From positions 1 through 42,010 of the forward strand of contig JARFTV010000036.1 in NCBI GenBank assembly GCA_029289325.1: a stretch of DNA of 42,010 bases, in the 5' to 3' direction. The translations under genes were made by a program, and so were the position numbers. The first letter of the stretch is position 1. Every line of letters starts with the position of its first letter. The notes beneath the pieces were generated by a model, which saw only the letters and a list, made by a program, of their open reading frames with translations, searched no databases and was not told the DNA's origin. Origin of the DNA: Alphaproteobacteria bacterium. Its GTDB lineage: Bacteria > Pseudomonadota > Alphaproteobacteria > Rhodobacterales > Rhodobacteraceae. Shown piece by piece: positions 3,528-36,249 of the stretch.

Positions 3528-4751
3528 TCAGCGCATCTCCTTCCGGGCGTTCCAGACGTTCCAGACCAGGATCGGCGTGACCAGCAACAGGATGATCATC
3601 GCAGAGGCCGAACCGACGCCCCAGTCGACCGCCACGAAAAGCTTGTCATACATGTAATTCGCCAGCACCTGCGTCTCCTGCTGGCCCCCCGTCATGGCCC
3701 GGACGATGTCGAAGACCTTGAGCACGACGATGGTGATCGTGGTCCAGACCACGACGATCGTGCCCATGATCTGCGGCACCTTGATCTTGAAGAAGATCTG
3801 GAACGGGTTGGCCCCATCGATGATCGCAGCCTCGATCGTATCCTCGGGCACCCCGCGCAGCGCGGCCGAAAGGATCACCATGGCAAAGCCCGTCTGCAGC
3901 CAGACCAGCACCGCCATTAGGAAGAAGTTGTTCCAGAACGGGATCTGCAACCAGAACTGCGGCCGGCCATAGGGCAGATCGGCCGTCGCCGCCCCCCAGG
4001 CCCAGGACACCGCGACCCAGGCCAGCCAGGCCCCCACCAGGATGCCCGCTCCGCGCAGCACCCGTGCCAGCAGCGCACCCTGTGCCAGAGCCCGGACCTG
4101 CCCCCAGAGCACCCACAGCAGCGCCAGCGCCACAGCAAGAAGCAACACCGCCGGCAGGACCCGCAGGATCAGCACCGACCAGATCCCGCCCTCGAACTGC
4201 AGCCAGAGCGCGTTCAGAAGGCCGATCTGCGTCTGCCCCGCCTCGCGGGTGTCATAGATCAGCTTCCAGATCACCGAGGCGCCGACGAAAGAGATCGCCA
4301 TCGGCATGAAGATCATGGATTTCGCCAGATTGCCCCAGCGGATGCGGTCGGTCAGCTGCGCCGCCAAAAGCCCGAAGGCGGTTGCCAGCGCGGGCACCAC
4401 GATCAGCCACAGCATGTTGTTGCGCAGGGATTCCCAGAATTTCGATTCCCCGAACATCTGCCGGTAGTTGTCGAAGCCGACAAAGGCCAGCTCGCCCCCG
4501 ATGTTTCGGTTCAGGGACAGCCAGGCGGTCGCAAAGACCGGATAGGCCAGATAAAGCCCCAGCGCGAGCAGGGCGGGAAACAGGAACAGCCAGGGACGCA
4601 CCATATTGGCGCGGCTGATGTTCCGCCCGGCCTGGAGGCCACGCGCCGGAAAGATCACCTTGTCCAGAATGATGTTCGACGCCCAGAAATAACCCACGCA
4701 ACCGCCTACGCCGATCACGATGGTTACCAGCGCCAGGAAAGCCTGGTCCAT
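3528..4751 (-). CDS. aglF: Sugar ABC transporter permease AglF (MalF type), with an internal insertion
   Basis: This is the first inner-membrane permease subunit of the importer. It has 407 residues, whereas AglF-type proteins are usually about 330. The core is clear: membrane segments near residues 5-25 and 52-75, then MIFMPMAISFVGASVIWK, and the EAA loop EAAIIDGANPFQIFFKIKVP at about 307-326. Between residues ~186 and ~262 there is extra sequence holding two strongly hydrophobic stretches (about 191-216 and 233-253). These interrupt the usual run from GLLNA to WLQIPFWNNFFLM. The reading frame is intact, so this looks like a real insertion. It follows aglE after a 97-bp gap containing a hairpin. 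Confidence 0.93.
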   Translation of the reverse strand: MDQAFLALVTIVIGVGGCVGYFWASNIILDKVIFPARGLQAGRNISRANMVRPWLFLFPALLALGLYLAYPVFATAWLSLNRNIGGELAFVGFDNYRQMFGESKFWESLRNNMLWLIVVPALATAFGLLAAQLTDRIRWGNLAKSMIFMPMAISFVGASVIWKLIYDTREAGQTQIGLLNALWLQFEGGIWSVLILRVLPAVLLLAVALALLWVLWGQVRALAQGALLARVLRGAGILVGAWLAWVAVSWAWGAATADLPYGRPQFWLQIPFWNNFFLMAVLVWLQTGFAMVILSAALRGVPEDTIEAAIIDGANPFQIFFKIKVPQIMGTIVVVWTTITIVVLKVFDIVRAMTGGQQETQVLANYMYDKLFVAVDWGVGSASAMIILLLVTPILVWNVWNARKEMR

Positions 4752-4812
4752 TCGCCCCTCCCTAGACCCGAGCCATACCTATCGTCCGGTTCATCCGGCT
4801 TCTGGTCTTGTA

Positions 4813-16264: not shown

Positions 16265-17013
16265 GTGTCGACGCCTGTGCCGGGCTGGTCAGCCGGGGCG
16301 ATCCGGACCGCTTCCTCGCGGTGCTGGCCGCCCCGGCCCCGGTGCGGGCACGGCTTTTCCCGCTATACGCCTTCAACCTTGAGGTCGCCCGCGCGCCCTG
16401 GGTCACGCAAGAGCCGCTGATCGCGGAGATGCGCCTGCAATGGTGGCGCGATGTGGTGGAGAATGCCGCCTCGGGTGCCGCGAAGGCGCATGAGGTGGCC
16501 GGGCCGCTGCATGAGGTGATCCGGGACTTCGGCCTGCCCATCGCGGTCCTTGACAAGCTGGTCGCCGCCCGACGCTGGGACATCCATCGTGACCCGCATG
16601 AAGGTATAGACGGGCTGGAAACCTATCTGGAGGACACCGGCGCGGGGCTGATGTGGCTGGCGGCACGGACGCTTGGCGCGTCCGAGGTAGCGGAGGCTCC
16701 GATCCGGGCCTATGGCTGGGCCACGGCGGCGGCGGGCTATCTGCGCGCGGCCCCCGAACTTGCCGCGCGCGGGCGGCAGCCCTTGCCCGAGGGCATCACT
16801 TCCCAGGACCTCGCGCGGCGGGGGCTGGAGCGGCTGGCCGAGGCCCGGGCAGCGCGGCGGCTGGTGCCGAAGGCGGTGGCCCCGGCGCTGCTGGCGGGAT
16901 GGCAGACGGAAGGGATCTTGCGTCAGGTGGTTGCGGGGATTTCTTCACCCGAATTGCCCGAGGCGCAGAAGCGGTGGCGGCTGATGTGGCAGGCGTTCAG
17001 CGGCCGCTGGTGA
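16261..17013 (+). CDS. Squalene/phytoene synthase-like protein, NDUFAF6 type
   Basis: It has 250 residues and starts with GTG overlapping the cimA stop. It belongs to the squalene/phytoene synthase superfamily. RARLFPLYAFNLEVARAPW and MRLQWWRDVVENAASG occupy the first helices, and GLETYLEDTGAGLMWLAAR and AYGWATAAAGYLRA follow. The paired Asp-rich diphosphate-binding motifs of true carotenoid synthases are not seen. The QWWRD form matches the alphaproteobacterial relatives of NDUFAF6, a mitochondrial complex I assembly factor. It may therefore act in respiratory complex assembly rather than pigment synthesis; this is inference. No other carotenoid gene is nearby. Confidence 0.82.
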   Translation: MSVDACAGLVSRGDPDRFLAVLAAPAPVRARLFPLYAFNLEVARAPWVTQEPLIAEMRLQWWRDVVENAASGAAKAHEVAGPLHEVIRDFGLPIAVLDKLVAARRWDIHRDPHEGIDGLETYLEDTGAGLMWLAARTLGASEVAEAPIRAYGWATAAAGYLRAAPELAARGRQPLPEGITSQDLARRGLERLAEARAARRLVPKAVAPALLAGWQTEGILRQVVAGISSPELPEAQKRWRLMWQAFSGRW

Positions 17014-32870: not shown

Positions 32871-33776
32871 ATGGACTGGGACAAGCTGAGGATCTTTCAC
32901 GCCGTGGCCGAAAAGGGCAGCCTGACCCATGCCGGCGATGTGCTGCACCTGTCGCAATCGGCCGTGAGCCGCCAGATCCGCGCGCTGGAGGAAAGCCTGA
33001 ATGTCACGCTTTTCCACCGCCACGCGCGGGGGCTGATCCTGACCGAACAGGGCGAGTTGCTGTTCGATGCGACGCAGGCGATGGTCAAGCGGCTGGACGC
33101 CACCGCCGCGCGGATCCGCGACAGCGAGGACGAGGTCTTTGGTGAGCTGCGGGTGACGACCACGATGGGATTCGGGACCCTGTGGCTCGCCCCGCGGCTG
33201 GCGCGGTTGTACGAGAAATATCCGGCGCTGAAGATCGACCTGATGCTGGAGGAGCGGGTGCTGGACCTGCCGATGCGCGAGGCGGATGTGGCGATCCGGA
33301 TGAAGGAGCCCTCGCAGGCCGACCTGATCCGCAAGCGGCTGATGAACATCAAGATGCAGCTGTTCGCCACGCCCGAATATCTGGCCAGCCACGGCACGCC
33401 GAAGTCGATGGACGATTTCAGCAGCCACCGGCTGATCAGCCAGCATGCGGGGACGCCGCAGGTCGCGGCGGGGGCGCTTCTGGTGGCGGAGCTGATGACG
33501 CATGACATCCCCTCGACCCTGACGGTGAACAACTATTTCGGGGTCTTGCAGGCGGTCCTGAATCACCTGGGGATCGGGGTCCTGCCGGATTACCTGGCCG
33601 AGGATTTCCCCAATCTGGTCCGCGTCCTGCCGGATGTGGAAAGCGCCGAGGTGCCGGTCTTCCTCGCCTATCCCGAGGAGCTGCGCCATTCCAAGCGCGT
33701 GGCGGCCTTCCGGGACTTCGTGACCGAGGAGATCATGGCCTTCCGTCGCCGTCAGGCCGAGGATGCGGCGGCCTGA
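32871..33776 (+). CDS. LysR-family transcriptional regulator
   Basis: It has 301 residues, a standard LysR protein. The N-terminal winged helix-turn-helix reads [20 protein letters not shown] then [20 protein letters not shown]. The effector domain begins about residue 90 ([20 protein letters not shown]). The ATG at 32871 gives the usual start just before the helix-turn-helix. LysR proteins usually control a divergent gene, here murI-DUF1684, but that link is not supported by a recognised site. Ligand unknown. A palindrome and an sRNA gene follow. Confidence 0.92.
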
Positions 33777-33778
33777 CA

Positions 33779-33795
33779 TTGCTGCCATGCAGCAA
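33779..33795. promoter_or_regulatory. Palindrome TTGCTGC-CAT-GCAGCAA, possible PhaR-type site
   Basis: A perfect 7-bp inverted repeat with a 3-base centre, 2 bases after the lysR stop. Its core CTGC-N3-GCAG is the form reported for PhaR, the polyhydroxybutyrate regulator of Rhodobacter. It could equally be a terminator stem for lysR, though no T run follows. It lies about 40 bp upstream of the sRNA -35 box. Confidence 0.35.
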
Positions 33796-33834
33796 GTGCA
33801 TATCGGGATTGCCGATTTTGCGGGCACCCTGCCC

Positions 33835-33863
33835 TTGTTTGCAGCACGGCTCCGGCCTATTTG
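33835..33863 (+). promoter_or_regulatory. Putative promoter of the small RNA
   Basis: TTGTTT, a 17-base spacer, then TATTTG. The expected start is near 33870, exactly at the base of the 5' hairpin. Confidence 0.55.
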
Positions 33864-33869
33864 CAGTCT

Positions 33870-33949
33870 CGAAGCGGCGATGAGCGTGCTCTCGCCCCTT
33901 CGTACCTCCCTGTTGGACTTGGCCGAGCGGAAGCTCGGCCTTTTTTTTT
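33870..33949 (+). ncRNA. Probable trans-acting small RNA of about 80 nt
   Basis: No protein is encoded here, yet the structure is striking. At 33870-33902, CGAAG, GGCGA and GAG pair in turn with CTTCG, TCGCC and CTC, with only a C/C mismatch and one bulged T. The linker 33903-33920 reads TACCTCCCTGTTGGACTT and holds ACCTCCC, complementary to Shine-Dalgarno sequences. At 33921-33949 an 8-bp perfect stem GGCCGAGC/GCTCGGCC with a GGAA tetraloop and nine T ends it. Two hairpins around an anti-SD linker are typical of alphaproteobacterial Hfq-type sRNAs. It may be related to the suhB/MmgR or CcsR-like families; I could not test that. Confidence 0.72.
33921..33949 (+). terminator. Intrinsic terminator of the small RNA
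   Basis: GGCCGAGC-GGAA-GCTCGGCC followed by nine T: perfect stem, GNRA loop, longest T run in the window. Confidence 0.92.
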
Positions 33950-34018
33950 GGCCGACGGTTCCCCGGTGCGGGCGGCAACTTTTCTGCGAAAAATTGGCGT
34001 CGGGCGCGGGGTGGCGGT

Positions 34019-34047
34019 TTGCCCTTGCGCAACCTTTCCCGTATGAG
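34019..34047 (+). promoter_or_regulatory. Putative purL promoter
   Basis: TTGCCC, a 17-base spacer, then TATGAG. The start near 34054 gives a leader of about 33 bases. It is independent of the small RNA, which is closed by its terminator. The rest of 33950-34018 shows nothing recognisable. Confidence 0.45.
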
Positions 34048-34086
34048 GCGCGAAAGCCGCCATTCGCGCCTGCCCAAGGGGATGCC

Positions 34087-36248
<2,162 letters not shown>

Positions 36249-36249
<1 letters not shown>

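Follow-up and report, generated by a model that had tools for sequence, protein, structure and literature searches.

The small RNA (sRNA) SorY of R. sphaeroides is described as a transcript that depends on RpoHI/RpoHII, originates from its own promoter, is not processed and is bound by Hfq (PMC5036791, PMC8307010, PMC6238624). Hfq binding is reported together with an induction by singlet oxygen (PMC5036791, PMC8307010), and SorY cuts malate import via the takP mRNA (PMC8307010, PMC6238624, PMC9670543); a further paper also underlies the reading of SorY that is used here (PMC7866481). The 5' ends of SorY and of a second sRNA, SorX, have been mapped to positions 1,632,642 and 2,598,224 of R. sphaeroides, respectively (PMC6238624). 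Another group of sRNAs with a similar architecture is alphaR8 (MmgR/suhB). A paper of 2025 on its members SisA-D names MmgR as the first and so far only other characterised alphaR8 RNA, and SisA is reported to pair just upstream of a start codon through its core (PMC12559287).

The window analysed here, i.e., the whole stretch of 42,010 nucleotides from a member of the Rhodobacteraceae, contains an element between a lysR-type gene and purL that an earlier note had proposed to be a complete transcription unit. The promoter, a hairpin of 33 nt, an ACCTCCC linker and an 8-bp terminator with a GNRA loop and nine T are all present where that note had located them. The locus is composed as follows:

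32871..33776, plus strand: lysR-type regulator gene, upstream (Pfam HTH_1 and LysR_substrate)
33834-33949, plus strand: the sorY-containing stretch, with promoter, 33-nt 5' hairpin, ACCUCCCUGUUGGACUU linker and terminator
33834..33862, plus strand: RpoH-type promoter CTTGTT-N16-CCTATTT, a motif read from the sequence
33870..33948, plus strand: SorY small RNA, about 79 nt, its start inferred by aligning it with the 5' end mapped in R. sphaeroides
33870..33902, plus strand: 5' hairpin, 33 nt, variable in sequence, fold kept
33903..33920, plus strand: single-stranded seed/linker TACCTCCCTGTTGGACTT; ACCTCCC begins at 33904
33921..33949, plus strand: intrinsic terminator with 8-bp stem, GGAA (GNRA) loop and nine T (stem-loop 33921-33940, T run 33941-33949)
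34087..36249, plus strand: purL, downstream (Pfam AIRS, AIRS_C and FGAR-AT_linker)

The stretch 33870-33948 folds with -37.2 kcal/mol (z -4.44), an energy that none of 200 shuffles attained, and the terminator was recovered by a terminator scan. The order lysR - RNA - purL, with all three on the same strand, is shared with an R. sphaeroides-like locus (L157). An open frame in phase with purL reaches back to 33763 and runs across the whole small RNA (33763-36249), and automatic gene calling could wrongly stretch PurL over sorY.

Judged by its place, promoter, fold and linker, the RNA is the orthologue of SorY (RSs1543). Very probably, the locus as a whole is best explained as a sorY gene for a stress-made, Hfq-dependent RNA whose linker pairs with ribosome-binding sites. 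The earlier note had called the RNA unannotated, and at the curated cut-offs of Rfam only a tRNA is indeed found in the window, while the small RNA is absent; nevertheless, it is not a new RNA. When the region 33780-34090 was searched at a lowered threshold, the SorY model RF02651 matched positions 33872-33948 with 55.2 bits (E 1.2e-10), which lies below its gathering score of 111 bits. The SorX model RF02784 gave 44.3 bits (E 9e-10; cut-off 46.6), and the suhB/MmgR model RF00519 gave 24.4 bits (E 0.0045 on 311 nt, 0.014 genome-wide; cut-off 41).

One of the family genomes (G106) serves as the reference for this assignment. Its SorY scores 115 bits at C4:1,632,645, 3 nt away from the 5' end published for SorY, and the core of its SorX lies at 2,598,257. 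One of its proteins matches PDB 2hzk with 848 bits over all 365 residues; the entry itself is titled SmoM, and we take it to be R. sphaeroides TakP. From the SorY and SorX coordinates together with the 2hzk match, G106 is R. sphaeroides 2.4.1 or its twin. Its SorY is flanked by lysR and purL, with 82.8% and 87.6% identity to those of the window, respectively.

At E<=1e-5 the SorY model finds a match in 343 of 394 family genomes, a count that may include SorX, which is also matched by this model. A score above 111 bits is reached in a single genome of the 394, G106, and this is the reason why Rfam misses the SorY of the window. The gathering score of 111 nearly equals the R. sphaeroides self-score of 115, and therefore orthologues in other genera remain unannotated. 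The cut-off admits one species and not the gene, and hence it was not treated as defining. A single Rfam threshold thus conceals a conserved stress RNA in most sampled genera of a large bacterial family.

The distribution of the RNA was also analyzed independently of its own sequence. A protein search with the LysR of the window yielded a homolog at E<=1e-100 in 378 of the 394 family genomes. The DNA downstream of lysR was collected from 60 genomes, each representing another genus and chosen without regard to the RNA; they were drawn from the best roughly 150 of the 378 matches and hence represent nearer LysR relatives. Within 700 nt past lysR the core CCTCCCTGTTGGACTT is present with at most two mismatches in 57 of these 60 genomes, in 44 of them exactly, while the best matches in shuffled loci (20 shuffles for each of the 60) had three to five mismatches. 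As to the three misses, the contig ends in one locus (L202), and the other two genomes (G337 and G301) carry the RNA about 1 kb downstream. A link to photosynthesis was considered as well. The genome of the window carries photosynthetic reaction-centre genes, but such genes exist in only 166 of the 394 family genomes and are absent from 37 of the 60 LysR-anchored genomes, and the SorY RNA is present in the latter as in the others, which rules out this link.

The earlier note had seen in this stretch a small RNA with a promoter and a single-stranded anti-Shine-Dalgarno linker, and had suggested aligning relatives and looking for compensating changes. Such changes were found, and the relatives preserve the two stems as well as the linker. 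This supports a conserved small RNA, apparently with its own promoter, and the loss of stems and linker in relatives that would have refuted the note is not observed. In the window itself, a 5' hairpin, an unpaired ACCUCCCUGUUGGACUU linker and an intrinsic terminator are all present. The same-genus alignment A1 comprised 29 of 30 loci (L011 was excluded because of an assembly with 9% contamination and a second copy). In these 29 sequences 98.8% of the structure cells are paired and six pairs have changed on both sides (22 cells). None of 500 shuffles reached the paired fraction or the double-change values; among the five measures of covariation, the count of pair types stood out less clearly and was reached by 26 of 500 shuffles. 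Structures slid along the 29 sequences had only 37-51% of their cells paired. For the 5' hairpin taken separately, 5 of 13 pairs have changed on both sides and 98.1% of the cells are paired.

RNAalifold, applied to a cross-genus alignment of 63 sequences, returned the terminator and a 2-bp artefact and did not recover the hairpin, because the hairpin sequences of different genera are too diverged to align. Therefore, the hairpin was tested sequence by sequence and within the genus. Folded singly, the 5' parts of 57 orthologues from other genera have a mean z of -3.02, with z<-1 in 55 of them. Three pairs of the terminator keep pairing via double changes across genera. Of the 63 cross-genus sequences, 62 carry the linker ACCTCCCTGTTGGACT without any change (the exception is L239), and within the genus one sequence (L030) has one change at the end of it. 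Conservation thus concerns the shape of the hairpin, whose sequence varies, and the very letters of the linker. This is the pattern that a seed behind a protective cap would be expected to show.

The promoter had been read in the earlier note as TTGTTT (33835-33840) and TATTTG (33858-33863). The spacing of 17 nt between these two hexamers is correct, but the implied sigma-70 type is not, since a sigma-70 promoter scan of 33000-34600 gave no match and the motif resembles RpoH promoters. An ordinary sigma-70 promoter was thus rejected in favor of the RpoH reading. In the SorY gene of R. sphaeroides, CTTGAA-N16-CCTAAAT is as far from CGAAGC as the promoter is in the window, and the S. meliloti RpoH1 consensus is given as CTTGAA-N15-16-CCTATAT (PMC4843759). 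The window promoter is RpoH-like and close to this consensus, the dependence on RpoH being judged from the motif. A CTTG-N16-20-[CA]NTA motif lies upstream of the RNA in 52 of the 57 LysR-anchored orthologues, compared to 2.0% of shuffles and none of the 57 downstream windows, and this conservation agrees with the papers that place SorY under RpoHI/RpoHII.

The same motif bears on the alternative that the RNA is the terminator region of lysR or a processed lysR 3' UTR, analogous to SorX. That the RNA stays close to lysR in 57 of 60 genomes would fit this explanation, as would the derivation of its relative SorX from a 3' UTR (PMC6238624). However, in 52 of 57 genomes the promoter motif is situated between lysR and the RNA, and the SorY of R. 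sphaeroides is reported to arise from its own promoter without further processing (PMC8307010, PMC6238624). We regard a 3' UTR origin as very improbable, although it fares best among the alternatives to a sorY gene.

SorX is clearly a relative of SorY: all 20 SorY loci tested are matched by its Rfam model, with a worst E of 1.5e-4. The window RNA is not located in the 3' UTR of the OmpR-like gene (RSP_0847), the place of SorX. The genome of the window has a SorX of its own beside a response regulator gene, at C118:15399-15473 on the minus strand (L187 3400-3474), and its score of 75.1 bits is above the cut-off. About 200 nt upstream there is a second, tandem SorX copy with a poorer U-run (C118:15598-15680, minus strand; L187 3599-3681; 44.4 bits), and several relatives likewise have two SorX matches that are separated by about 100-250 nt. 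Another stretch of the same genome (L336; G000:C30, about 16266-16370, plus strand) combines CTTCCTCCCTGTTGAACTGG with a strong terminator beside an open frame with a putative signal peptide; the same candidate is found in G016 at C1:640013, and it is possibly an additional sibling RNA. A further candidate copy on contig C37 of the window's genome (G000) has no U-run and was therefore excluded from the count.

The relation to alphaR8 is more distant. The suhB model yields E<=1 for 15 of 20 SorY loci and E<0.01 for 3 of them, and conversely the SorY and SorX models yield E<=1 for 2 and 1 of 13 alphaR8 loci, respectively. Two reciprocal covariance models were restricted to core and terminator, and their E-values are rough. 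The first model (R1), built from 36 SorY sequences (36 of the 63 rows of the cross-genus alignment), matched each of the 16 alphaR8 loci once, at the right place, and had no other match in the 80.7 kb searched, with E<=0.01 in 11 loci, below 0.05 in 15, and 0.97 for the weakest. The second model (R2), built from 12 alphaR8 sequences (12 of the 16 loci searched by R1), recovered 32 of 32 SorY loci (30 of the 60 LysR-anchored loci, the window and L157) as well as two of two SorX loci, all with E between 2.8e-9 and 0.031; two other matches had E 0.32 and 0.42. In the alphaR8 majority CCUCCCU is followed by AGACUU, in SorY by GUUGGACUU. GACUU follows the alphaR8 core in 6 of 12 rows and ACU in 12 of 12. 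This ACU stretch is part of neither the anti-Shine-Dalgarno sequence nor a stem, and it argues, although not decisively, against mere convergence. From these sequence comparisons, SorX/SorY and alphaR8, which are separate in Rfam and in the literature searched, look like relatives.

That the window RNA is itself a direct MmgR/suhB (alphaR8) orthologue instead of SorY is even less probable than the 3' UTR origin. It could draw on the reciprocal covariance-model matches and on the suhB match (E 0.0045 on 311 nt, 0.014 genome-wide). However, the score of 24.4 bits stays under the suhB cut-off of 41, the linker reads CCUCCCU-GUUG-GACUU here and CCUCCCU-AGACUU in the alphaR8 majority, and the place differs, with a homolog of FGase in 10 of 13 alphaR8 loci as opposed to lysR and purL here. 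The earlier note had considered membership in suhB/MmgR as possible; a link to this family is real, but distant. The 10-mer UUUCCUCCCU, by which alphaR8 is defined (PMC12559287), is replaced in the window by GUACCUCCCU, with agreement in 8 of 10 letters.

The fetched stretches of 10 of the 13 alphaR8 loci contain the FGase homolog, which is not a neighbor of the RNA in the window, where lysR and purL adjoin. Such adjacency is not required of paralogues, as SisB-D lie elsewhere (PMC12559287). At the best FGase locus of the window's own genome (L288) no CCTCCC occurs on either strand in the 3.7 kb searched, and an alphaR8 RNA was seen at the best FGase locus neither of this genome nor of G106. 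Both genomes may have lost the FGase-linked copy and kept SorX and SorY, as far as can be judged from the best FGase locus only.

Taken together, we lean towards a joint reading, which we regard as fairly probable. SorX and SorY would form a Rhodobacteraceae branch of the alphaR8 siblings, marked by a seed that an insertion of 3 nt into the linker has made longer (CCUCCCU-AGACUU to CCUCCCU-GUUGGACUU). Within the family, SorY would be a stress regulator of near-universal occurrence that has settled beside lysR, is controlled by RpoH and is linked neither to photosynthesis nor to takP. The literature searched contained no paper that joins SorX/SorY with MmgR; the connection is possibly made in Lagares 2016 or in the original SorX/SorY papers, which lay outside its scope, and one review has SorY in its text and MmgR in the title of a reference. 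If the two groups are kin, seed mutants, sponges and Hfq data could be transferred between them.

The neighborhood of sorY was compared in a set of lysR-purL loci, many of which had been chosen via the core, so that its count of 117 core-bearing loci among 119 includes such loci. Where the core is present, it follows the lysR match at a distance of 105 to 410 nt, and the distance from the end of the lysR match to purL, where both were found, ranges from 264 to 5903 nt. In one locus (L152) the core is separated from lysR by 155 nt, with purL 5.9 kb away. The start of purL is present in 40 of the 60 LysR-anchored pieces. Thus, lysR is the steadier neighbor of SorY, and purL is next to it in many, but not all, relatives. 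An attenuator in the purL leader, i.e., a purine-responsive 5' untranslated element that stops transcription before purL, could account for the terminator that precedes purL on its own strand and for the in-phase open frame that begins at 33763, crosses the RNA and continues into purL, but it is the least probable of all alternatives, because the RNA stays by lysR where purL has moved up to 5.9 kb, because insertions and deletions in the hairpin would break a reading frame, and because the SorY of R. sphaeroides is reported to be short, unprocessed and equipped with its own promoter (PMC6238624, PMC8307010). The lysR-purL stretch of one further genome (L191, G032) has two SorY-like copies, at 3608-3659 and 3791-3841 on the minus strand.

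For a sorY gene, the following mode of action can be proposed. Under stress, a SorY of roughly 79 nt would be made in the organism of the window and held by Hfq, for which the U-tail of the terminator is the presumed site, and the 5' hairpin would act as a cap that is kept for its shape. The linker ACCUCCCUGUUGGACUU would pair with the ribosome-binding sites of transporter mRNAs, takP first, which would lower translation and mRNA level and direct less carbon into the TCA cycle.

The pairing with takP, the known target of SorY, is convincing in R. sphaeroides and only suggestive in the genome of the window. With at most two mismatches allowed, the 14-nt core has 26 complementary sites in G106, compared to 18 for the reversed control; two of the 26 are sorY and sorX themselves, and one is the ribosome-binding site of takP (C4:1807948-1807961, six bases before the start at 1807968). 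Among 1000 shuffles each, 7 of the target and 5 of the linker equalled the latter duplex. In the genome of the window there are 30 sites and 28 in the reversed control, which is no clear excess. Its takP homolog (G000 C89) pairs with the 19-nt linker at -31 to -3, which was equalled by 75 of 1000 target and 201 of 1000 linker shuffles. At 22 takP-like places taken together, z averages -1.33 and nine have p<0.05, and for purL starts the values are -0.52 and 5 of 40; three takP start codons are doubtful (L302, L317, L318), and without them p<0.05 applies to 8 of 19. The TRAP protein assigned as TakP was placed by NCBIfam in the DctP family only.

A match to TakP at E<=1e-120 exists in only 20 of 149 family genomes, and takP is thereby ruled out as the general reason for the conserved linker. 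Therefore, SorY should have other targets, and it is likely that further conserved ones exist. Because the linker is nearly invariant also in genomes that lack a reaction centre, and takP is rare, the main conserved targets have probably not yet been found. SorY may have ancestral targets beyond takP, and a CrfA-like sponge may exist.

Two genes of the window had been named as possible local targets, as GGGAGG precedes them. This motif is indeed present in front of both (minus strand, 6207 and 12096) and also in front of two more open frames (4762 and 25144). Pfam identifies the first gene, for which the earlier reader had used the name aglE, as encoding a solute-binding protein and the second as encoding a pyridoxal-dependent decarboxylase. 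However, the pairing was no better than with shuffles for either gene (161 of 500 shuffles were as good for the first, 160 of 500 for the second), so that these two are not supported as targets. A transporter permease gene (Pfam BPD_transp_1; minus strand, start at 4751, GGGAGG at 4762) forms a predicted duplex of -20.3 kcal/mol with the linker, equal in energy to that of the takP of this genome, and is weakly better, with 45 of 500 shuffles being as good.

Several described sRNAs can be compared with the RNA of the window. CcsR1-4 of R. sphaeroides, to which the earlier note had pointed, have a CU-rich linker. By their description in the papers, they are stress-induced, RpoH-dependent and Hfq-binding like SorY, but unlike SorY they are cotranscribed with ccaF1 and matured from its transcript (PMC8307010). 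The alphaR8 RNAs (MmgR/SisA-D) share with the window the 5' hairpin, the single-stranded CCUCCCU core followed by ACU, the terminator and, presumably, Hfq. They differ in having UUUCCUCCCU then AGACUU in the majority of cases, where SorY has UACCUCCCU then GUUGGACUU; furthermore, they are mostly FGase-linked and have other promoters, and the window RNA is below their Rfam cut-off. Core and terminator are also common to SorX (RSs2461). In contrast to the window RNA, SorX is released from the 3' UTR of the gene in front of it, which encodes an OmpR-like response regulator, and its target is a spermidine transporter (PMC6238624, PMC8307010).

The greatest similarity is to the SorY of R. sphaeroides, which has the same lysR-purL place, the same architecture, an RpoH-type promoter with N16 spacer and, letter for letter, the linker UACCUCCCUGUUGGACUU. 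Compared to it, the window RNA has a shorter 5' hairpin of other sequence, one G fewer before the terminator and GGAA instead of UUCU in the terminator loop; it scores 55 bits with the SorY model, as opposed to 115, and its takP site pairs less well relative to shuffles. The SorY gene itself is known, and the parts of interest are its conservation across genera and its link to alphaR8.
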